From NCBI GenBank assembly GCA_030840445.1, contig JAVEEN010000028.1:1-45604 (forward strand): a stretch of DNA of 45,604 nucleotides, written 5' to 3'. This document shows, piece after piece, positions 33,818-42,542 of this stretch. The notes under the pieces were generated by a model. The model was not told the DNA's origin. It did not search any database and worked only from the letters and a program-made list of their open reading frames with translations. Position 1 is the stretch's first letter. Each line of letters starts with the position of its first letter. The DNA comes from Pseudonocardiales bacterium (GTDB lineage Bacteria > Actinomycetota > Actinomycetes > Mycobacteriales > Jatrophihabitantaceae). The translations under genes and the position numbers were made by a program.

Positions 33818-33943
33818 CGCAGTCCGGAGGGTGTGTAGTTTGCACCCACGGGACCGTAGTAGAGTTTCGAAGGTTCGCCCAGCACGACGAGCTAGGGCGT
33901 GCAAGTAGGACCGCAGCAGTACCCAGCAGTACTGGCCTACCAA

Positions 33944-34017
33944 GGCCCCGTAGCGCAGTTGGTTAGCGCGCCGCCCTGTCACGGCGGAGGTCGCGGGTTC
34001 GAGTCCCGTCGGGGTCG
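33944..34017 (+). tRNA. tRNA-Asp (anticodon GTC)
   Basis: Acceptor GGCCCCG (33944-33950) with CGGGGTC (34010-34016), discriminator G. Anticodon GTC within CCCTGTCACGG; T loop GTTCGAGTC. 126 nt downstream of tRNA-Glu, the usual gene order. Confidence 0.97.
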
Positions 34018-34022
34018 CAACA

Positions 34023-34054
34023 GATCCGGTTCCCACCTGGGGCCGGATCCTTTT
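34023..34054 (+). terminator. Intrinsic terminator of the tRNA-Glu/tRNA-Asp genes
   Basis: GATCCGG (34023-34029) pairs with CCGGATC (34043-34049) and is followed by CTTTTGTTG. It starts 6 nt after the tRNA-Asp end. Confidence 0.8.
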
Positions 34055-34153
34055 GTTGTGCCAGTGGTCGGCGAAGCACCGCCGAACGAGCCGTGGACGT
34101 ATCGTCGCCGGAGATCGTCGCCGGAGTCGGCCGAATCGATCGAGGAGGGTGTC

Positions 34154-34888
34154 ATGGCTGACCAGCCAACACTGGTGGCAGTAGCCCACGGCACCAAGAA
34201 TTCGGACGGCCTGGCTGAGCTACGCCGGCTCACGAACATCGTCCGGACGAAGTTGCCGTCAGTGCCGGTCGAACTTTGTTACCTCGACGTGGTGGGTCCG
34301 CGACTGGCCGACACCCTGGCGGGACTGGCCGGACCGGCGGTCGTCGTGCCGCTGCTATTGGCCACCGGCTTTCACGTCAAGACAGATATCCCGGCGGCGA
34401 TCGCGAGCCGGCCCGATACCGTCGTCACCGATCCGATCGGCCCGGACCCGCGAATCTCCAAGGTTGTCCAGCTGCGGCTGGAGCAAGCACGCGCCGGTTG
34501 GCTGGCCGACGATGAGGACGGTGCGGCGCCGGGCGACGTCGTCGTGGTCGCCGCCGGCTCCTCGGACCCGGAGGCCCGGGCGGAACTGGCCGAAGTCGCC
34601 GATCACCTACGAGCGTGGAACCCGCGGGCCGTCACGTTCGCACAGTTGACCGACGACGACCCGTTCGCGACGCTGTCGCCGAGCGTCCAGGTGGCGAACT
34701 ACCTGCTGGCGCCGGGATTTTTCGACGACAAACTCCGGGGCGAGGCGTCGGGAGGCGTTGTCTCGAAGCCCATCGGCGCCCACCCGCTGGTCGCCACCGT
34801 GATCGTCGACCGTTACAGCTCGGGCGTCGGGCGGCTCGAGGCGCTGCGGGCCGCTCAGGCGGCCCGCACCTCGGCGATCGACGAATAG
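34154..34888 (+). CDS. CbiX/SirB-type sirohydrochlorin chelatase family protein
   Basis: 244 residues from ATG 34154, with GAGGAGGG 4 nt upstream. The family inserts iron or cobalt into sirohydrochlorin; iron gives siroheme for sulfite and nitrite reductases. Two repeated alpha/beta halves are visible: VAVAHGTKNSDGLAELR (first His in HGT) and VVVAAGSSDPEARAELAE, plus VPLLLATGFHVKTDIP with a second His. Next to genes that release sulfite from sulfonates, siroheme supply for sulfite reduction is a sensible link, though inferred. The last 34 nt overlap the convergent tauD gene. Confidence 0.88.
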   Translation: MADQPTLVAVAHGTKNSDGLAELRRLTNIVRTKLPSVPVELCYLDVVGPRLADTLAGLAGPAVVVPLLLATGFHVKTDIPAAIASRPDTVVTDPIGPDPRISKVVQLRLEQARAGWLADDEDGAAPGDVVVVAAGSSDPEARAELAEVADHLRAWNPRAVTFAQLTDDDPFATLSPSVQVANYLLAPGFFDDKLRGEASGGVVSKPIGAHPLVATVIVDRYSSGVGRLEALRAAQAARTSAIDE

Positions 34889-35787
34889 GCCGACGCGTCC
34901 CCCTCGAGCGAGTAGCTCTGTTCTCCTGCGACTCCGACGGGGACGTCGCCGGCCACGGTCACCCGGTTCAATCGGCGAGGCTGCCCGGAGTAGTTGTCGA
35001 TCGCGTAGTGCTGGGTGATCCGGTTGTCGAACAGGACCAGCTGGTTCGGCTCCCAGGCGACCCGCAGAACATTCTCCGGACGGGTGACGTAGGCCTGCAG
35101 CAACCGCAGGATGTCGCGGGATTCGGTGTTCGACAGCCCGACCAGCCGCTGGGCGAATCCGCCTATGAACAAACCCCTTTCACCCGTCAATGGGTGAACC
35201 CGTACGACCGGGTGCACGGTGCGGTAGACGGTCGAGGTGAAGATTGCCCGGCGGTCCTGCGCACCTTCCTGTTCCAGGTTGGTCGGGACGGCGTAGTCGT
35301 AGTCGTTGGTGTGTTCGGCCCAGAGGCTGTCGGCGAACTGGCGGAGCACCTCGGGCAGGTCCTGGTACGCACCGGCCGTAGTGGCGATCAGCGTTTCACC
35401 GCCGTGATCCGGGACGGTGATCGATCGCAATGTGCTGGCCTGCGGCGGGTTCAGGACGAACGTGACGTCGGTGTGCCAGTTGTTGGCCCTGCCTTGTTCG
35501 CTGTCCACCGGCAGGATATTTGGTGCGCCTTCGACCGAGGCCACCGTCGGATGCGCCTTGGTCAGGTCACCGAAGTGCGCCGCGAAGCGCTGCTGAGCCT
35601 CGTCGTCGAGTTCAGCGCCTCGGAACACCAAGGCTTTGTGCTGGTTGAGGGCGTCCCGCAGGGAGGCCACCGTCGACGGGCTCAGGTCCGTGGCGAGGTC
35701 CAGCCCGTGGACCTCGGCTCCAATCCGTTCGGTGATCGGACGAATGGTCAATTCCGAAGGGGTCCTCTGATTGATCGTGACGGTCAT
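34855..35787 (-). CDS. TauD/TfdA family alpha-ketoglutarate-dependent dioxygenase
   Basis: 310 residues. Members hydroxylate a sulfonate such as taurine at the carbon beside sulfur, so that sulfite is released, using Fe(II) and 2-oxoglutarate. Metal ligands: H105 and D107 in NNWHTDVTF, H260 in RITQHYAIDNY; an Arg after it (R271-R275) binds 2-oxoglutarate. The start overlaps the flavin monooxygenase stop by 4 nt; last gene of the sulfonate operon. Substrate may be taurine or another alkyl-sulfonate or sulfate ester. Confidence 0.92.
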   Translation of the reverse strand: MTVTINQRTPSELTIRPITERIGAEVHGLDLATDLSPSTVASLRDALNQHKALVFRGAELDDEAQQRFAAHFGDLTKAHPTVASVEGAPNILPVDSEQGRANNWHTDVTFVLNPPQASTLRSITVPDHGGETLIATTAGAYQDLPEVLRQFADSLWAEHTNDYDYAVPTNLEQEGAQDRRAIFTSTVYRTVHPVVRVHPLTGERGLFIGGFAQRLVGLSNTESRDILRLLQAYVTRPENVLRVAWEPNQLVLFDNRITQHYAIDNYSGQPRRLNRVTVAGDVPVGVAGEQSYSLEGDASAYSSIAEVRAA

Positions 35788-37139
35788 GCTGCGTTCTCCT
35801 TCTCAACGGGTGCGGCCGGCGTGCTGCGGGCCACGGTGAATTGGTTGCTGGGACGACTGAGGCCGTAGTGCTCGCGCAGTGTCGTACCGGTGTATTCGGT
35901 GCGGAACAGGCCGCGGCGTTGAAGTTCGGGCACCACCAGGTCGACGAAGTCATCGAGGCCACCGGGCAACGTCGGTGGCATGATGTTGAAGCCGTCGGCC
36001 GCCCCTTCGGTGAACCAGTACTCGATCTGATCGGCGATCTGGGTCGGAGTGCCGGCGAATACCCGGTGCCCGCGACCACCGGCCAGGCGCTCGATCAGCT
36101 GCCGGATGGTCAGGTTCTCCCGACGGGCCAAGCCGGTTACCAGGTCGAACCGGCTCTGGGCGCCTTCGGTATGCGAGCCGACCTCGGGCAGCGGGCCATC
36201 CAGTGGGTAGTGGGAAAGATCGTGATCCAGCAGGTTGGACAACTGCTTCAGACCGTACTCAGGGTTGATCAACGAATTAAGGAGTGCTTCGGCCTCGTGG
36301 GCTTCTTCCTCGGTGCGGCCGATGATCGGGCTGATACCCGGCAGGATCTTGATCTGCTCCGGGGTACGCCCGTAGCGGCTCAGCCGAGCCCTGACGTCGT
36401 CGTAGAAGGCCTTGCCGTCCTCGAAGGTCTGCTGGGCGGTGAATACCGCCTCAGCGAATCGAGCGGCGTACTCTTTACCAGTCTCCGAAGAGCCGGCCTG
36501 GACGAGCAACGGGTGGCCCTGAACGGGACGCGGGGTGTTGAGTGGACCCCGCACCTGGAAGTGGGTGCCGACATGGTCCAGGGTGTGGATCTTGTCGATA
36601 TCAGCGAAGACTCCACTGAACTTGTCGATCTGCAGGGCATCGTCCTCCCAACTGTCCCAGAGTTTCCTGGTCAGCTCGACGAACTCGGTGGCCCGCTCGT
36701 AGCGCAGCTCGTGATCAGGACGGGCATCGCGATTGAAGTTGCGCGCCTCGTCCTGGCCGGCCGAGGTCACGATGTTCCAGCCCGCCCGGCCGCCGCTGAG
36801 ATGATCGAGCGACGCGAACTTGCGAGCCAGATGGTAAGGCTCGTTGTAGGTCGTCGACGCCGTGCCGATCAGCCCGATCCGATCGGTGACCGCAGCCAGG
36901 GCGGACAGCAGGGTCAACGGTTCGAAGCGGCTGTGGGAGTTCCGTTTGACGTTGCCCCACAAGGCGACACCGTCGGCCAGGAACAGCGAGTCCAGCTTGC
37001 CCCGCTCAGCGGTCTGGGCGATCTTGGCGTAATGCTTCAGGGTCAGCGCCCCTTGGGGATCGGTGTCCGGGTGACGCCAGGCCGCCTCGTGGTGACCGTT
37101 GGCCATGATGAAGGCATTGAGGTGTACCTGCTTGCTCAT
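35784..37139 (-). CDS. LLM-class flavin-dependent monooxygenase (NtaA/SnaA/DszA type)
   Basis: 451 residues, the length of this TIM-barrel subfamily, which uses reduced FMN supplied by a separate reductase. Landmarks: HLNAFIMANGHHEAAWRHP at the start, GGRAGWNIVTSAGQDEARNF (flavin site), GHPLLVQAGSSETGKEYAARFA, and the C-terminal FNIMPPTLPGGLDDFVDLVVPELQRRG, where FRTEYTG follows. In sulfur-scavenging operons such enzymes cleave C-S bonds of sulfones or sulfonates. The reductase gene is not in the window. Confidence 0.92.
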   Translation of the reverse strand: MSKQVHLNAFIMANGHHEAAWRHPDTDPQGALTLKHYAKIAQTAERGKLDSLFLADGVALWGNVKRNSHSRFEPLTLLSALAAVTDRIGLIGTASTTYNEPYHLARKFASLDHLSGGRAGWNIVTSAGQDEARNFNRDARPDHELRYERATEFVELTRKLWDSWEDDALQIDKFSGVFADIDKIHTLDHVGTHFQVRGPLNTPRPVQGHPLLVQAGSSETGKEYAARFAEAVFTAQQTFEDGKAFYDDVRARLSRYGRTPEQIKILPGISPIIGRTEEEAHEAEALLNSLINPEYGLKQLSNLLDHDLSHYPLDGPLPEVGSHTEGAQSRFDLVTGLARRENLTIRQLIERLAGGRGHRVFAGTPTQIADQIEYWFTEGAADGFNIMPPTLPGGLDDFVDLVVPELQRRGLFRTEYTGTTLREHYGLSRPSNQFTVARSTPAAPVEKENAA

Positions 37140-37181: not shown

Positions 37182-38132
37182 TCAGCGGGCGACGGCAGCA
37201 CCGGTGCGCCAGCGGGAAAAGTGCCGTTCCAGGCGCACCAAGCCGTAGTTGACGACAAGGCCGAGCAGTGCTGTGGCGAGGATTCCCGCATACATATCAG
37301 GTATCTGGAAGCTGCTCTGGGCATTGATGATCAGGTAGCCGAGTCCAGCCTTGGCGCCCACCATCTCGGCAGCGATCAACACCAGGATGGACGACGTTCC
37401 GGCCATCCGTATCCCGGTGAACATGGTCGGAACCGCCGAGGGGAGCACGACCTTGGCGAACAACCGGGGACTCGACAGCCCGAGTGAACGAGCCGCCCGT
37501 ACCAGTAGGGGATCGACCTGCTTGACTCCCGCCACCGTGTTCAGCAGGATCGGGAAGAAGCTCGCGTAGGCCACGATGGTGATCTTCGACGTCTCCCCGA
37601 TACCGAGCAGCAGCGTGAACACCGGCAACAGGGCCAGCGCGGCCGTGTTTCGAAACAACTCCAGCAGCGGATTGAGGAAACTCTCGAGTGGTCGGTACCA
37701 GGCGATCAGGACCCCGAGCGGGATTCCCACCACGATGGCGAATCCAAATCCCACCACCGAACGGGTGAGGCTGGCCTGCAGATGATCGGCGAGCTGCCCG
37801 TTGCGGATCAGCTGCCAGCCGGCCTGCAGATCCTCATGCAGGGGCGGCAGGAACACCCGGGTCGATTCCGACACCAAGTATTTGGGACCGAACTCCCACA
37901 GCAGCAGGAACACCGTGATCGCCGCGCATTTCCACAGCGCCCGACCGACCGCACGTCTGACCCGGGCGAAGGTCAGCCGATCGACCCAGCGACGCCGTCG
38001 GCCCTCAGCGGCCTCAGCTGTGACCCGGCGATCCACGTCGGCGTCAGACGCGGCACTCGAGGTCGTGGGAGCCGGCGTAGCGGACAACACAGAGCCGGCC
38101 TGCCCGTCGGAGCCGTTGAGCGTCGTCGTCAT
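37182..38132 (-). CDS. ABC transporter permease, sulfonate/taurine type
   Basis: 316 residues, SsuC/TauC-like. After an N-terminal soluble stretch of about 60 residues come about six membrane spans with the permease EAA-like loop SLGLSSPRLFAKVVLPSAVPTMF (core EAARSLG-type G spacing). It would pass a sulfonate across the membrane together with the ATPase and binding protein. The start codon ATG shares one base with the ATPase stop (TGATG). Confidence 0.92.
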   Translation of the reverse strand: MTTTLNGSDGQAGSVLSATPAPTTSSAASDADVDRRVTAEAAEGRRRRWVDRLTFARVRRAVGRALWKCAAITVFLLLWEFGPKYLVSESTRVFLPPLHEDLQAGWQLIRNGQLADHLQASLTRSVVGFGFAIVVGIPLGVLIAWYRPLESFLNPLLELFRNTAALALLPVFTLLLGIGETSKITIVAYASFFPILLNTVAGVKQVDPLLVRAARSLGLSSPRLFAKVVLPSAVPTMFTGIRMAGTSSILVLIAAEMVGAKAGLGYLIINAQSSFQIPDMYAGILATALLGLVVNYGLVRLERHFSRWRTGAAVAR

Positions 38133-38992
38133 CAGGCTGCCCTCTCGGTTCCATCCGGCTGGATCTTCTCGTGGCCGGCCTGCTGAGCCCGCCGGACCTC
38201 GTCACGTAGCAGGGTCCAGATTTGGTGGCGGTGTCGGCGAAACTCCTCGCTGGCCCGGACGTCCACCTGCGCCTCGATCGCCGCGGCCCGGTCGCCAATC
38301 TCGATGTCGACGACCTGTTTGAGCCGCCCGGGACGCGAGGTCAGCACCGCCACCCGCTGGCCGAGATAGACGGCTTCCTCGATGCCATGGGTGATGAAGA
38401 CGATGGTCTTGCCGCTCGCTTGCCAGATACGCAGCAACTCGTCCTGTAGCTGTTCTCGGGTCTGGGCGTCCAGCGCGGCGAACGGCTCGTCCATCAGCAG
38501 GATGTCCGGGTCATAAGCCAGGCTTCTGGCGATGGCGACCCGCTGCTTCATGCCGCCCGACAGTTCGTGCGGGTACCGGTCGGCGAAGGCCGCCAGACCG
38601 ACCAGTTCCAGAAACTCGCTCGCTTTCTCGGCCCGCTGTTTGCGTTTCAAGCCAAGGGTCTCCAGGCCGAATTCGACGTTGGCCCTCGCCGTCCGCCACG
38701 GAAACAGCGCATATTGCTGGAATACCACGGCCCGGTCGAGCCCTGGCCCGGTGATCTCCTTGCCGCCGACCAGTACTCGTCCGCTCGTCGGCGTGCTCAG
38801 GCCGGCCAGCAGATCCAACAGAGTTGTCTTGCCCGAACCACTTGGCCCGACCAGCGAGAGGAACTCACCTTCAGCAATGTCCAGTGAGACGTCCTCCAGG
38901 GCGGTGAGGGTATGGGCATCAAGCTGCTCCGCGGTCGCCCGCACGGTGAATTGCTTGCTCACGTGCTGCACGCTGATTTTCGGGATCGTCAT
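38132..38992 (-). CDS. ABC transporter ATP-binding protein, sulfonate/taurine type
   Basis: 286 residues from ATG 38992, overlapping the binding protein's stop as ATGA; the frame to 39094 is a shadow. Walker A GPSGSGKT (49-56), Q-loop FQQYALFPW (91-99), signature LSGGMKQRVAIARSLA (144-159), Walker B LLMDEP (165-170), and the H-loop VFITHGIEEA. SsuB/TauB/NrtD-type. It drives the permease encoded next. Confidence 0.95.
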   Translation of the reverse strand: MTIPKISVQHVSKQFTVRATAEQLDAHTLTALEDVSLDIAEGEFLSLVGPSGSGKTTLLDLLAGLSTPTSGRVLVGGKEITGPGLDRAVVFQQYALFPWRTARANVEFGLETLGLKRKQRAEKASEFLELVGLAAFADRYPHELSGGMKQRVAIARSLAYDPDILLMDEPFAALDAQTREQLQDELLRIWQASGKTIVFITHGIEEAVYLGQRVAVLTSRPGRLKQVVDIEIGDRAAAIEAQVDVRASEEFRRHRHQIWTLLRDEVRRAQQAGHEKIQPDGTERAA

Positions 38993-40020
38993 GACGAGCG
39001 CCCGCTGGCCAGCGCATTCAACGAGTTCGTGTAGTACTTCGACGGTGTGAGCTGACCCGTGACGATGCCGCTCGAGGCCAGCCATGGTCCCCACTGGCTG
39101 AAGTCCTTGTCCGAGATGGCACCACCCTTGGCGGGAACGGCCACGCTCTTCCAGTATTGAAGATTGCCGGTGCCCTCGTTCCGCCCCCGACCATTGATGA
39201 TCTTGGTGAAGTCAGCGATCACCCGCGCTCGCGGTGTGGTGCGCTCCCACTCGATTGCCTTGGCCACCCCGGTGACGAAGATCTTCGACGTTTCGGGATT
39301 GCGCTTGATGAAGTCGTTACGCAACACGTATTGGCCGCCGTCGAAGGCGCCGAACAGGGAATAGTCGCTGAAGAGTGACCGCAGGCCGCCCGCCGCTACC
39401 GCGTGATCCTGCAGCACGCCGTTCAGCGCACCGACCTCGACCTGCCCCTTGCGGATGGCTTCTTCGGTGTTGTTCGGTGGCAGCACGACCAGCTGCACCT
39501 GCTTGATCTCGTTTGAGGTCAGCCCGTTGCGCTGCAGGTAGGTGTCGATGACCGCCTCGGCGTGGGCACCGAGGGTGTTGACCGCGATCTTCTTGCCGAT
39601 CAGGTCACGAGCGGTGTGGACGTTTGAGTCTGCCTTGACATAGAAGCCGTAGAACGACCTCGCATCCGAGCCGTAGTAGTTGATCACGGCCTTGACGGGC
39701 GCGCCGGCCTCGATGAGCTTGACGACCGCCCCGGAGAAGGCCCCGCCGAAGTCGGTCTGATTCGTCGCCGCGGACTGGATGTCCTGTGGCCCGGAGATGG
39801 TGTTTCCAACCCACTTGAGCTTGACTTTGCCGAGATATCCGAGGGCCTGGGCCAGCTCCGGCAGCGAGACCGCGTTGGCCGAGCCCTGGTAACGCAGCTC
39901 GGTGACCTCGGGCTGGCCCGGCGCGGCCGCACTCGCATTGCCACTTGTGCTGCAGCCGGTGAGGCCCACCGACAGCGCTACCGCGGCGGCCAGGGCGGAC
40001 AGGGTAAAACTTCGCTTCAT
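38989..40020 (-). CDS. ABC transporter substrate-binding lipoprotein, sulfonate/taurine type
   Basis: 343 residues. Lipoprotein signal MKRSFTLSALAAAVALSVGL with lipobox LTGC (Cys 23), then a periplasmic-binding fold of the SsuA/TauA type: an N-lobe RYQGSANAVSLPELAQALG, GAFSGAVVKLIEAGAPVKAV, and FYVKADSNVHTARDLIGKKI. It captures a sulfonate for the ABC importer. It is the first long gene of the operon; GGAAAG lies just before the ATG. Regulation is by the leader peptide region upstream. Confidence 0.94.
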   Translation of the reverse strand: MKRSFTLSALAAAVALSVGLTGCSTSGNASAAAPGQPEVTELRYQGSANAVSLPELAQALGYLGKVKLKWVGNTISGPQDIQSAATNQTDFGGAFSGAVVKLIEAGAPVKAVINYYGSDARSFYGFYVKADSNVHTARDLIGKKIAVNTLGAHAEAVIDTYLQRNGLTSNEIKQVQLVVLPPNNTEEAIRKGQVEVGALNGVLQDHAVAAGGLRSLFSDYSLFGAFDGGQYVLRNDFIKRNPETSKIFVTGVAKAIEWERTTPRARVIADFTKIINGRGRNEGTGNLQYWKSVAVPAKGGAISDKDFSQWGPWLASSGIVTGQLTPSKYYTNSLNALASGRSS

Positions 40021-40059
40021 GACTTTCCTTTATCTCATAGTCGATCGGAAACATAGAGT

Positions 40060-40071
40060 TTGTGGCCACAA
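40060..40071. promoter_or_regulatory. 12-nt palindrome TTGTGGCCACAA before the binding-protein gene
   Basis: Perfect palindrome 40 nt upstream of the lipoprotein start, in the leader between the leader peptide and the first operon gene. A second small hairpin, CTGTC-N5-GACAG, lies about 10 nt on the leader-peptide side. Either may be a protein site or part of the leader RNA fold. Confidence 0.4.
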
Positions 40072-40133
40072 GAAGCAGCCGCTGTCTGATGGACAGGGCT
40101 CAACTGGCTGTGGGGAGCGGACGGTGCCGGTTA

Positions 40134-40152
40134 GCTGACTGCGACGGTCAGC
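40134..40152 (-). promoter_or_regulatory. Hairpin overlapping the stop codon of the Cys leader peptide
   Basis: GCTGAC (40152-40147) and GTCAGC (40139-40134) form a perfect 6-bp stem with a 7-nt loop on the minus strand. The leader peptide's TGA lies within the first arm, so a ribosome at the last Cys or Arg codon would cover it. The position fits a ribosome-controlled switch. Confidence 0.5.
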
Positions 40153-40222
40153 GACAGACTGCGCTGCAGGTCTGCTTGAAGTCCACGTAGCGACGCGCTA
40201 CGAACGGGACGAACGGCTTCAC
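40148..40222 (-). CDS. Cys-containing leader peptide of the sulfonate operon
   Basis: 24 residues, GTG start at 40222 and TGA at 40150-40148. It ends RRYVDFKQTCSAVCR, close to the RRHVDL...SAxC pattern of actinobacterial putative leader peptides found before sulfate, sulfonate and cysteine genes. Cys codons at positions 19 and 23 would slow a ribosome when Cys-tRNA is short. It lies 11 nt after the MMPL stop and 128 nt before the first operon gene. No ribosome site precedes it, in agreement with a leaderless start at the promoter just upstream. Ribosome-controlled attenuation by Cys has been shown for similar mycobacterial peptides; here it is inferred. Confidence 0.8.
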   Translation of the reverse strand: MKPFVPFVARRYVDFKQTCSAVCR

Positions 40223-40229
40223 GAGCCAA

Positions 40230-40258
40230 AAGCTACTGACGCCGTCGACCGCTGTCAA
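40230..40258 (-). promoter_or_regulatory. Sigma-70-type promoter of the sulfonate operon
   Basis: On the minus strand, TTGACA (40258-40253) and TAGCTT (40235-40230) are separated by exactly 17 nt. The leader peptide GTG begins 7 nt after the -10 box, so transcription starts at or next to it. The promoter lies inside the 3' end of the MMPL gene. Confidence 0.75.
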
Positions 40259-42542
40259 CTCGTACGTGATCTATTCCATCTAGAACGATAGGAATAGTAG
40301 ACATATGGTCTTCGAAATCGTCGATCGAACCGGCTTCGGGCGCTTCCTCACGAATGCCGAAGCGGGCATACAGACCCCGCAGTGATCGCGGTGCCCACCA
40401 GTTGGCGTCACCGAGCAGGCGCATCGCCGCCGGCACCACGATCATGCGTACGAGCAGCGCGTCGATGACGATCGAGGTACCCATCGCAACCCCGATCAGT
40501 TTGATGAAGGTGATCGAAGACGCCGAGAAGGCGGCAATGACCACGATGATCAGGAGGGCGGCCGAGGTGATGATGCCTCCGGTGCGCTGCAGTCCGGTCG
40601 CGACCGCGGTCCGGTTGTCGCCCGTGAGGTCGTACTGTTCGCGTACCCGGGACAGCAGGAAGACCTCGTAGTCCATGCTGAGACCGAAGACGATGGCCAG
40701 TACCAGGATGGGCTGGGTCGCCTCGAGGGTTCCGGTCGAGGTGAAGTTGAGCAGGCCGGACAGGTGACCATCCTGAAAGATCCAGGTGACCACGCCGAAC
40801 GAGGCTCCCAATGACAGGATATTGAGCAGAATCGCCTTCAGTGGAAGGAGAATCGACCCGAACGCGAAGAACAGCAGGACGAAGGTGGCCAGGCACACCA
40901 GCAGCCCCATCCAGGGCAGGATGCTGCCCACGCTGTTCAGCCGATCGAGAAGTTGAGCGGTGTTGCCGCCGATCAGCACCACCGCGACACCCGGTGTATG
41001 GGGCAGCGCTCGGATGGAGTTGACCAACGACTTGGCTTGCGGATCAAGCGATTCGCCGTGGTAGTTGATGTCGAGACGCGCCGTCGTTCCCTTGGTGGCG
41101 AGGATCGTGACATTGGTGGCTCCTGGCAACCCCTTTACCGCGTTGACGTACCCGACCAGGGCCTGCTGACCCATGCTCGAGTCGACCGAAGCCCTCAATT
41201 CCACGTCGGCGATAATCGGGCTCGAACCATTGCTGGGGAATTCGGTTTGCAGCCGGTGGCTGACTAGGCGTGCCTGCGACGACGTCGGCAGCATGCGCTC
41301 ATCGATACCTCCGAAACGCACGTTCAGGAAAGGGAGCGCCAACACCACCAATACGATCGCGCTGGCCGCCAGATAGAGCACCGGCCGCCGCATCACGCTG
41401 TGCGCCAGGCGGAACCAGAAGCCCTCGGAATCGGCAGCGTTCCCCGGTCGGTTCGTTGACCCGCTTGTTGGGCGGTTGGTCGGGTGGTTGGTCGCCTTGA
41501 TCCGCCGACGCCGGAGCGGGAACTTGTCGACTCGCGTTCCCAAGGTCACCAGCACGGCGGGTAGTACGGCGAGCGCTACGATCGCGGCGATCAGTACAGC
41601 GGACATGCCGCCAAATCCCATCGACCGCAGGAACGTCTGGGGAAACAAGGTGAGGCCGGCGAGCGCTACGGCGACAGTGATGGCCGATACCAGCACGGTT
41701 CGACCGGCGGTCTGCACGGTGCGACGCGTTGCCTGGACCGGATCGTGGCCGGCAGCGAGTTCCTCGCGGAACCGGCCGACCATGAACAGGCCGTAGTCGA
41801 TGGCCAGTCCGAGGCCCATGATCGTGACGATGTTGATGGCGAAGACGCTCACATCGGTGAACAGCGCTATTACCCGCAGTGCGGTGAAGGCGCCGAGGAT
41901 CGAGATTCCGCCGATCAGCAAAGGCAGTGACGCTGAGACAAGGCTACCGAAGATGACCGCGAGAAGGACGAGCAGGATCGGCATCGAGATCGTCTCGGCT
42001 CGTCCGATGTCGGCCTTGACCCGGGCCGAGATGTCGTCGTTGACGACCGCGGAGCCACCGATCTGGGCGGCGTAGCCGCGTTGGGCCAATACTGACTTCA
42101 GGCTGTCGTAGACGCTCACGGAGCGTCGATGGCCCGGATCGCGCAGGGTCAGCGCCGCATAGGTCGTGTGCCGGTCGGCCGTGACGAAGGCAGCTGACTT
42201 GGTGTTCCAGTACGTCCGCGTCGTGACGACCTGGTCGTCGGCCGAACCCGCGGTCGGGAAGTCGGCAACCGCACGACTGACATCGGCGGCGTAGGAAGGA
42301 TCGTCCACCGTCTTGGCCGGGTTGGTGACGAGCAAGATGACGTCGGCGTCGGTCCGGCCGATCCGGTCGTCGAGTTGCTGGATGGCGCGGGCGCTCTCGC
42401 TGTGCGGGTCGTCGAAGCCACCGTCGACCACCCGGCTGAAGAGACCGGTGCCCCAGACCCCGGCGAAGACCATGAAAATCAGGCCGCCGGCGATGATCTG
42501 CCAGCGCCATGCTGTTACTCGGGTGCTCCACCAGGTCAACAT
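40233..42542 (-). CDS. MMPL family RND-type transporter
   Basis: 769 residues with two repeats of the MMPL/RND fold: an N-terminal helix, an extracytoplasmic domain, and five-helix bundles, twice. Motifs: LGLAIDYGLFMVGRFREEL and VFGLSMDYEVFLLSRVREQY, the usual D-Y signatures of helix 4 in each half. It exports lipids or drugs using the proton gradient; mycobacterial members export cell-envelope lipids. Divergent from the TetR gene, its likely repressor. A terminal extension of about 45 residues is acidic and probably cytoplasmic. Confidence 0.93.
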   Translation of the reverse strand: MLTWWSTRVTAWRWQIIAGGLIFMVFAGVWGTGLFSRVVDGGFDDPHSESARAIQQLDDRIGRTDADVILLVTNPAKTVDDPSYAADVSRAVADFPTAGSADDQVVTTRTYWNTKSAAFVTADRHTTYAALTLRDPGHRRSVSVYDSLKSVLAQRGYAAQIGGSAVVNDDISARVKADIGRAETISMPILLVLLAVIFGSLVSASLPLLIGGISILGAFTALRVIALFTDVSVFAINIVTIMGLGLAIDYGLFMVGRFREELAAGHDPVQATRRTVQTAGRTVLVSAITVAVALAGLTLFPQTFLRSMGFGGMSAVLIAAIVALAVLPAVLVTLGTRVDKFPLRRRRIKATNHPTNRPTSGSTNRPGNAADSEGFWFRLAHSVMRRPVLYLAASAIVLVVLALPFLNVRFGGIDERMLPTSSQARLVSHRLQTEFPSNGSSPIIADVELRASVDSSMGQQALVGYVNAVKGLPGATNVTILATKGTTARLDINYHGESLDPQAKSLVNSIRALPHTPGVAVVLIGGNTAQLLDRLNSVGSILPWMGLLVCLATFVLLFFAFGSILLPLKAILLNILSLGASFGVVTWIFQDGHLSGLLNFTSTGTLEATQPILVLAIVFGLSMDYEVFLLSRVREQYDLTGDNRTAVATGLQRTGGIITSAALLIIVVIAAFSASSITFIKLIGVAMGTSIVIDALLVRMIVVPAAMRLLGDANWWAPRSLRGLYARFGIREEAPEAGSIDDFEDHMSTIPIVLDGIDHVRVDSGRRRQ

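Follow-up and report, generated by a model that had tools for sequence, protein, structure and literature searches.

Results

A leader ORF and its promoter precede a putative sulfonate-type operon

We analysed a stretch of 45,604 nucleotides from a Pseudonocardiales bacterium (contig JAVEEN010000028.1), referred to here as the window. On its minus strand lie genes for a substrate-binding protein (SBP) of the sulfonate type, NMT1/SsuA-like by profiles (38989..40020), with a Shine-Dalgarno-like AAGGAAAG directly before its ATG; an ABC ATPase (38132..38992), whose start we place at the ATG at 38992, the listed ORF opening with a GTG at 39094; an ABC permease recognised by profile (37182..38132); an FMN monooxygenase of the NtaA/DmoA family, with a profile match over its cut-off (35784..37139); and a TauD-family dioxygenase, also identified by profile (34855..35787). 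A sequence-only reading of this DNA had proposed a binding protein-ATPase-permease-monooxygenase-TauD operon after the leader, and profiles confirmed these genes on one strand. The Pfam profile identified the SBP as NMT1. For the SBP, ATPase and permease, the profiles with sulfonate or taurine names scored below the NCBIfam cut-offs, so that a sulfonate-type substrate is only presumed. With that presumed substrate, the first gene downstream of the leader belongs by profile to sulfur metabolism, a broad criterion for a Cys leader. A CbiX-type chelatase ORF (33899-34888) faces the operon in convergent orientation; because a tRNA gene (33944-34017) overlaps its long 5' extension, its true start probably lies further in. 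The chelatase may help to make siroheme for sulfite reductase. An Rfam search at gathering scores yielded nothing beyond five tRNAs and the SRP RNA.

All leader and promoter elements are likewise on the minus strand. The −35 hexamer TTGACA (40253..40258) lies within the 3' end of an MMPL ORF (40233-42542) and is followed, after a spacer of 17 nt, by the −10 hexamer TAGCTT (40230..40235), the first three bases of which are the MMPL stop codon TAG. A GTG at 40222, 7 nt further on, opens a leader ORF of 24 codons, VKPFVPFVARRYVDFKQTCSAVCR (40148..40222), which ends with a TGA at 40150-40148. Three codons separate its two Cys codons, codon 19 (TGC, 40166..40168) and codon 23 (TGT, 40154..40156), the latter being the proposed sensor codon. 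The ORF contains a 7-bp inverted repeat with a 3-nt loop (40186..40202), and its stop codon lies inside a stem (40134..40152) whose arms, GCTGAC at 40152-40147 and GTCAGC at 40139-40134, are 100% complementary and 7 nt apart. Beyond the stop extends a C-rich, G-poor stretch (40043..40147), a candidate Rho-loading region. The promoter, the GTG, the short ORF and the stem that the sequence-only reading had named were all recovered in the window, as was their partial overlap with the preceding MMPL gene.

Its description of the promoter as near-consensus stood in part. TTGACA is a perfect consensus −35, and TAGCTT fits TAnnnT, which the accessible portion of PMC8079986 gives as the −10 of Streptomyces lividans, but TAGCTT matches TATAAT at only 3/6 positions, which is why a sigma-70 scan of 39800-40500 missed the leader promoter and returned 0 promoters. 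The pattern TTGACA-N16-18-TANNNT-N5-9-RTG occurs once in the 45.6-kb window, vs 0.01 occurrences expected from shuffles.

Promoter, start and peptide are conserved in four species

The SBP was found in 4/9 genus genomes and 4/24 family genomes, and a leader lies directly upstream of it in 4/4 of the genus genomes that carry it. In the three orthologues other than that of the window, the −35 reads TTGACA (G004), TTGACA (G003) and TTGACC (G002), and TAGCTT, TAGCTT or TATGTT stands as the −10, 7 nt before the GTG. Across the four, the −35/−10 spacing is 17-18 nt and the 7 nt to the GTG are constant, a sequence comparison compatible with a leaderless start in 4/4, and the leader ORF is probably leaderless. 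The peptide is kept from residue 5 on, except for Q17K in G002. Comparative sequence evidence confirms the leader and its promoter as real features beyond chance, as four species retain the promoter, the GTG and the peptide amid diverging flanks. The leader-SBP gap, 127 to about 240 nt long, is poorly conserved. In G002 (L008) this gap holds, by eye, about three near-identical repeats of about 45 nt with a GCGCG core, unseen in the other three orthologues.

The leader is a divergent member of a known actinobacterial kind

The window peptide matched the NCBIfam profile NF042936 (leader_Ms4527A) with an E value of 6.6e-8 and 32 bits, along 20 of its 21 positions and below the curated cut-off of 45 bits. 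No match to NF042934 (cut-off 27 bits) or NF042933 was listed at E<=10, and the window locus was absent from the genus search with NF042934 at E<=0.1. Other leaders of the genus exceed the cut-off of NF042934, named 'putative leader peptide', in 9/9 genomes. NF042935 is an unrelated family and was rejected. The window leader carries the motif R-x-[HY]-[VI]-D-x8-C, our own description of actinobacterial Cys leaders in the broad sense. Judged by its profile match, the window peptide is a divergent relative of the NCBIfam actinobacterial Cys-leader peptides, a kind already known. Its earlier identification as a Cys leader of the actinobacterial kind is borne out by this homology to an annotated family and by its place ahead of the SBP in every genus genome that has one.

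The sequence-only reading had also found it unusual how fully the parts can be read here. This did not hold up, since related leaders matched NF042936 at E<=0.01 in 8/9 genus, 20/24 family and 105/121 order genomes, with 0/14 controls each time. At E<=10, 9/14 control genomes also match, and only 10/121 order genomes exceed the cut-off of the profile. With the window peptide itself as query, 23/394 class genomes matched at E<=0.01, and a plasmid search gave one weak Streptomyces match (E=4).

The genome of the window has three NF042936 matches at E<=0.01, and the other two precede genes for an adenylylsulfate kinase and a nitrite/sulfite-reductase-type protein. At 56 leader places, the nearest downstream ORFs, picked by a simple ORF rule, are mostly cysC-, sulfite/nitrite-reductase-, monooxygenase- or binding-protein-like. 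Ten of them were scanned with profiles, several of the resulting names being below cut-off. On the sulfur side, these were an adenylylsulfate kinase, a nitrite/sulfite-reductase type, three NtaA/DmoA or alkanesulfonate-type monooxygenases, a mercaptopyruvate-sulfurtransferase-like protein and an SsuC-type permease. The rest, an amino-acid-type permease, a nickel/peptide-type binding protein and an amino-acid-type binding protein, are not clearly sulfur proteins by name, although two of these three have cystine transporters in their match lists. Head-to-head pairs of family leaders were seen at L010/L017 (G008:C1:2790300-2790584) and L012/L018 (G007:C40:135170-135523), the matches being about 175-245 nt apart before cysC-like and sulfite-reductase-like genes on opposite strands.

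Leaders were also sought from the side of the SBP. A motif scan of 700 nt upstream returned a leader at 11/29 other SBP loci of the class (12/30 with the window's own). When 600 nt upstream of the best 80 named SBP relatives, mostly from Arthrobacter and Amycolatopsis, were scanned, six pattern matches were obtained, of which 4 were convincing: three genus records and one Terrabacter. The leader is no fixed companion of this SBP.

The Cys codon at D+9 is predominantly UGU

With the Asp of the [HY][VI]D motif as the anchor of the leader alignment, Cys23 of the window occupies position D+9. Among leaders with Cys at this position, UGU is used in 105/113 of the main set (114 examined; L149 has Gly), in 11/11 SBP-linked class leaders, in 9/10 mycobacterial-type poly-Cys leaders and in 10/11 further genus leaders, or 135/145 with all sets together. 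The further genus set comprised 14 places, two of which lacked the motif and one of which was a stop-interrupted chance match, leaving the 11 with Cys at D+9. UGU is the majority codon in 15/16 family labels, eight of which hold only one to three leaders; the exception, f4, has UGC in 7/9 (L226, L233, L236, L237, L238, L246 and L252). In ordinary genes, the UGU share is 9-20%: 18/192 Cys codons in the ORFs downstream of the leaders, 6/66 in the window genes and 138/687 in 400 kb of G008. One synonymous site has thus been kept as UGU over family-level divergence in GC-rich genomes. The leaders were found by peptide profile, so the searches should not favour a codon.

Other Cys positions behave differently from one another. 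At D+2, the codon is UGC in 5/5 leaders of the main set and 18/18 of the poly-Cys and genus sets; at D+5, the position of Cys19 in the window, it is UGC in 35/43 leaders with Cys there; D+8 is mixed (8 UGU, 10 UGC); and D+7 is UGU-rich in mycobacterial-type leaders (15/16 of the main set and 8/9 poly-Cys leaders) and UGC in 5/5 genus leaders. Pooled, the Cys positions other than D+9 in the main set give 35 UGU and 55 UGC, which is UGU-richer than genes, and D+9 differs from them with a Fisher P of 3e-17, a value that overstates independence because the leaders are related. Across the set of 56 leaders, GC3 drops to 0.02 at D+9, whereas every other position between D-8 and D+15 lies within 0.46-0.98. 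D+9 is the strongest of several UGU-rich sites and not the only one.

Three other formulations were given up. A rule that the last Cys codon is UGU was replaced by the D+9 rule, as some tailed or poly-Cys leaders end with UGC while their D+9 codon is UGU; among 15 class-wide leaders, the last Cys codon is UGU in 13 and UGC in 2, and D+9 is UGU in all 15. Complete invariance held in the early sets (55/55, 15/15 and 11/11) and was abandoned when a further set of 43 gave 35 UGU and 8 UGC. The claim that D+9 alone is UGU-rich was withdrawn in view of the D+7 counts.

At the peptide level, Asp is present in 114/114 and Arg at D-4 in 112/114 leaders of the main set, both with mixed codons, so they are conserved as residues. 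In the later sets, 2/10 poly-Cys leaders have Glu and Gly at the Asp position, and a single genus place has His. The Asp-to-Cys spacing of 9 is found in 113/114 leaders, with the caveat that a short ungapped profile search itself selects for a fixed spacing. From the Asp on, 62/114 leaders have a single Cys codon, which fits poorly with a simple poly-Cys counter. Ser at D+6 is encoded by AGC in 82/88 leaders, possibly through inertia; we do not count this as codon selection, because no single synonymous step leads from AGC to TCN or back.

Chance frame or RNA structure

Could the short ORF be a chance reading frame in front of an operon with an ordinary promoter? It is indeed very short and scores below the family cut-off, but the conservation of the peptide in 4 species with diverging flanks, the profile match and the codon bias across families make this explanation extremely improbable. 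Another alternative is that the conserved segment works mainly through RNA structure and less as a peptide, a pair of hairpins in the ORF having been selected in the genus. Over codons 7-24, 14/17 same-residue codons are identical in the four species, vs 85/214 in the SBP (Fisher P=0.0007), and none of 282 18-codon windows of the SBP exceeds 9 identical same-residue codons. The few changes sit in a loop, a bulge or a terminal pair or yield a G-U pair, and the 7-bp inverted repeat is kept in 4/4 orthologues with one A-U to G-U change. The two predicted hairpins could account for the synonymous constancy of codons 7-24. Against this stand the small sample of only four sequences and the behaviour of other leaders. 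Fold energy relative to synonymous recodings gave a mean z of -1.48 for these four vs -0.80 to +0.40 for four other leader types. In the cysC-type leader, synonymous identity was 71% vs 57% in pooled pairs, and the all-way test gave no excess (6/16), two of the seven cysC loci having been dropped because the gene pattern was missed. Neither RNA hairpins nor excess synonymous conservation was retained as a family-wide feature, the former for want of support from the fold energies of other leader types and the latter because it is weak in the cysC-type leader. We regard a primarily structural role as improbable.

The output step

The sequence-only reading had called the locus a complete attenuation module. 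Sensor and promoter can be read, but the output device cannot, as neither a terminator nor a modelled Shine-Dalgarno switch emerged. In classical transcription attenuation, the GCTGAC/GTCAGC stem would belong to a terminator or antiterminator. In the window, it pairs perfectly and has the stop codon within it, but it is present in G000 and G004 and absent from G003 and G002, so that 2/4 orthologues lack it and its standing as a working part fell; an intrinsic terminator scan of 39800-40500 found none. This mechanism is very improbable here. Translational attenuation has more in its favour. In a model reportedly due to Canestrari in 2020, stalling of the ribosome releases the ribosome-binding site further downstream from an RNA structure, and in the predicted free RNA of G000, the SBP Shine-Dalgarno sequence is about 60% paired. 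As far as the accessible parts of PMC13236596 and PMC9031893 go, the Cys leaders of M. smegmatis act by translation attenuation. When ribosome masks were placed at Cys19, Cys23 or the stop, however, predicted pairing, which comes from an energy model only, shifted by <=0.08 in 4/4 orthologues, and the largest shifts (G004 and G003) were toward more pairing. A mask over the whole leader clearly lowered pairing only in G002 (0.81 to 0.61), with changes of <=0.06 in the other three, and the variable length and poor conservation of the gap also speak against such a switch. A Shine-Dalgarno sequestration switch was dropped as a candidate for lack of support from this modelling, and translational attenuation in the mycobacterial manner appears rather unlikely for this leader.

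The composition of the gap was then compared with that of other intergenic regions. Over the 105 nt after the stop, C minus G averages 0.087 in 36 family leaders (30/36 positive) vs 0.011 in 129 upstream gaps of G008 (Mann-Whitney P=1.2e-5), the control gaps being from one genome with a simple purpose-made gene caller and the leaders being non-independent. The four orthologues lie at the 97th-99th percentile of C minus G (93rd-99th by best 90-nt stretch). Among 56 leaders, 49 have more C than G in the first 90 nt after the stop, the exceptions including 4 of 8 D-type leaders. A C-rich, G-poor gap would suit Rho loading and proves nothing. In the accessible part of its text, Seliverstov 2005 (PMC1262725) weakly suggests Rho for mycobacterial cys leaders.

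Discussion

We consider it likely that the ORF encodes a leader peptide which senses cysteine and sets the expression of the sulfonate-type operon through a Rho-dependent or translational output. Transcription would begin at or next to the GTG, and a ribosome would load on the leaderless end. When Cys-tRNA is scarce, the ribosome would slow at the UGU of codon 23, with the R-R-Y-V-D motif, about 9-13 residues back, sitting in the upper exit tunnel and helping to hold it. The slowed ribosome would cover the leader stop and the start of the C-rich gap, so that transcription or downstream translation could proceed. With ample cysteine, the ribosome would finish and leave, and the exposed C-rich gap would favour premature Rho-dependent termination or poor initiation. 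This account is consistent with the homology to a Cys-leader profile, with the sulfur-type genes that follow the other matches in the same genome, with the conserved promoter, start, peptide and spacing, with the gene context and with the C-rich gap; constraint acts both on residues (Asp and Arg at D-4) and on a codon (UGU at D+9). Several observations weigh against cysteine sensing: the leader has only two separated Cys codons and no poly-Cys tract; no conserved output structure was found in the four orthologues or the other leader types; UGU at D+9 is not universal, as f4 illustrates, D+7 is UGU-rich too and the Asp varies in the later sets; and a convincing leader preceded just 4 of the best 80 named SBP relatives in the 600-nt scan.

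More tentatively, these leaders may be composite sensors and no codon counters, in which a required UGU at D+9 acts behind an R-R-x-V-D that occupies the exit tunnel while UGU stands in the A site. UGU is decoded via a G-U wobble, and UGC would not do. Cysteine sensing in front of sulfur operons would then depend on a single synonymous base in much of the Actinomycetes. Our confidence in this proposal, somewhat short of even, was lowered slightly on account of the D+7 counts. Such a rule is simple and testable, UGU vs UGC at one position. It could explain cysteine sensing by leaders with a single Cys codon, and it offers a cheap discriminator between codon-reading attenuators, arrest peptides and leaders that are both.

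What is new here is the UGU bias at D+9 of these leaders. A literature search on UGU and cysteine leaders found no statement of the rule, although Canestrari 2020 may state it. Only one explicit comment on codons was found, for an unrelated cysS leader, uORFC-8-2 of Rhodobacterales, which in the accessible part of PMC8632094 is likewise a candidate Cys uORF attenuator and, unlike the window leader, has tandem Cys codons with UGC dominant and an intrinsic terminator. Leaders over the cut-off of NF042936 share A-R-R-[HY]-V-D-F-K...C-S...C with the window peptide, which differs in having two separated Cys residues without a Cys-rich tail and in preceding a sulfonate-type operon. The genus leaders that match NF042934 share the motif spacing and mostly have UGU at D+9, whereas the window peptide itself matches neither NF042934 (cis_reg_atten) nor NF042933 (leader_Ms5788A). 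Mycobacterial poly-Cys leaderless short ORFs are reportedly also the subject of the 2020 work of Canestrari. Like the window leader, these ORFs are leaderless, short, furnished with Cys codons and located before sulfur genes, going by the accessible parts of PMC13236596, PMC9031893 and PMC9094748; the window leader has no consecutive Cys run, and the output structure was not found in it. The actinobacterial cys-operon leaders without terminators in Seliverstov 2005 (PMC1262725), in the portion of that paper available, resemble the window leader in that their Cys codons lie close to the stop, they lack a hairpin terminator and a role for Rho is suggested. They have runs of Cys codons, in contrast to the one conserved codon at fixed spacing in the window family.

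The window leader is real, conserved and divergent, and UGU at its codon 23 is a detail deserving attention given the family pattern. With it, the gene sets that stand behind Cys leaders in actinobacteria come to include an operon of the sulfonate type. Two further leader-like ORFs, L308 and L310, lie before a membrane protein that looks TauE/SafE-like from its N-terminal sequence.
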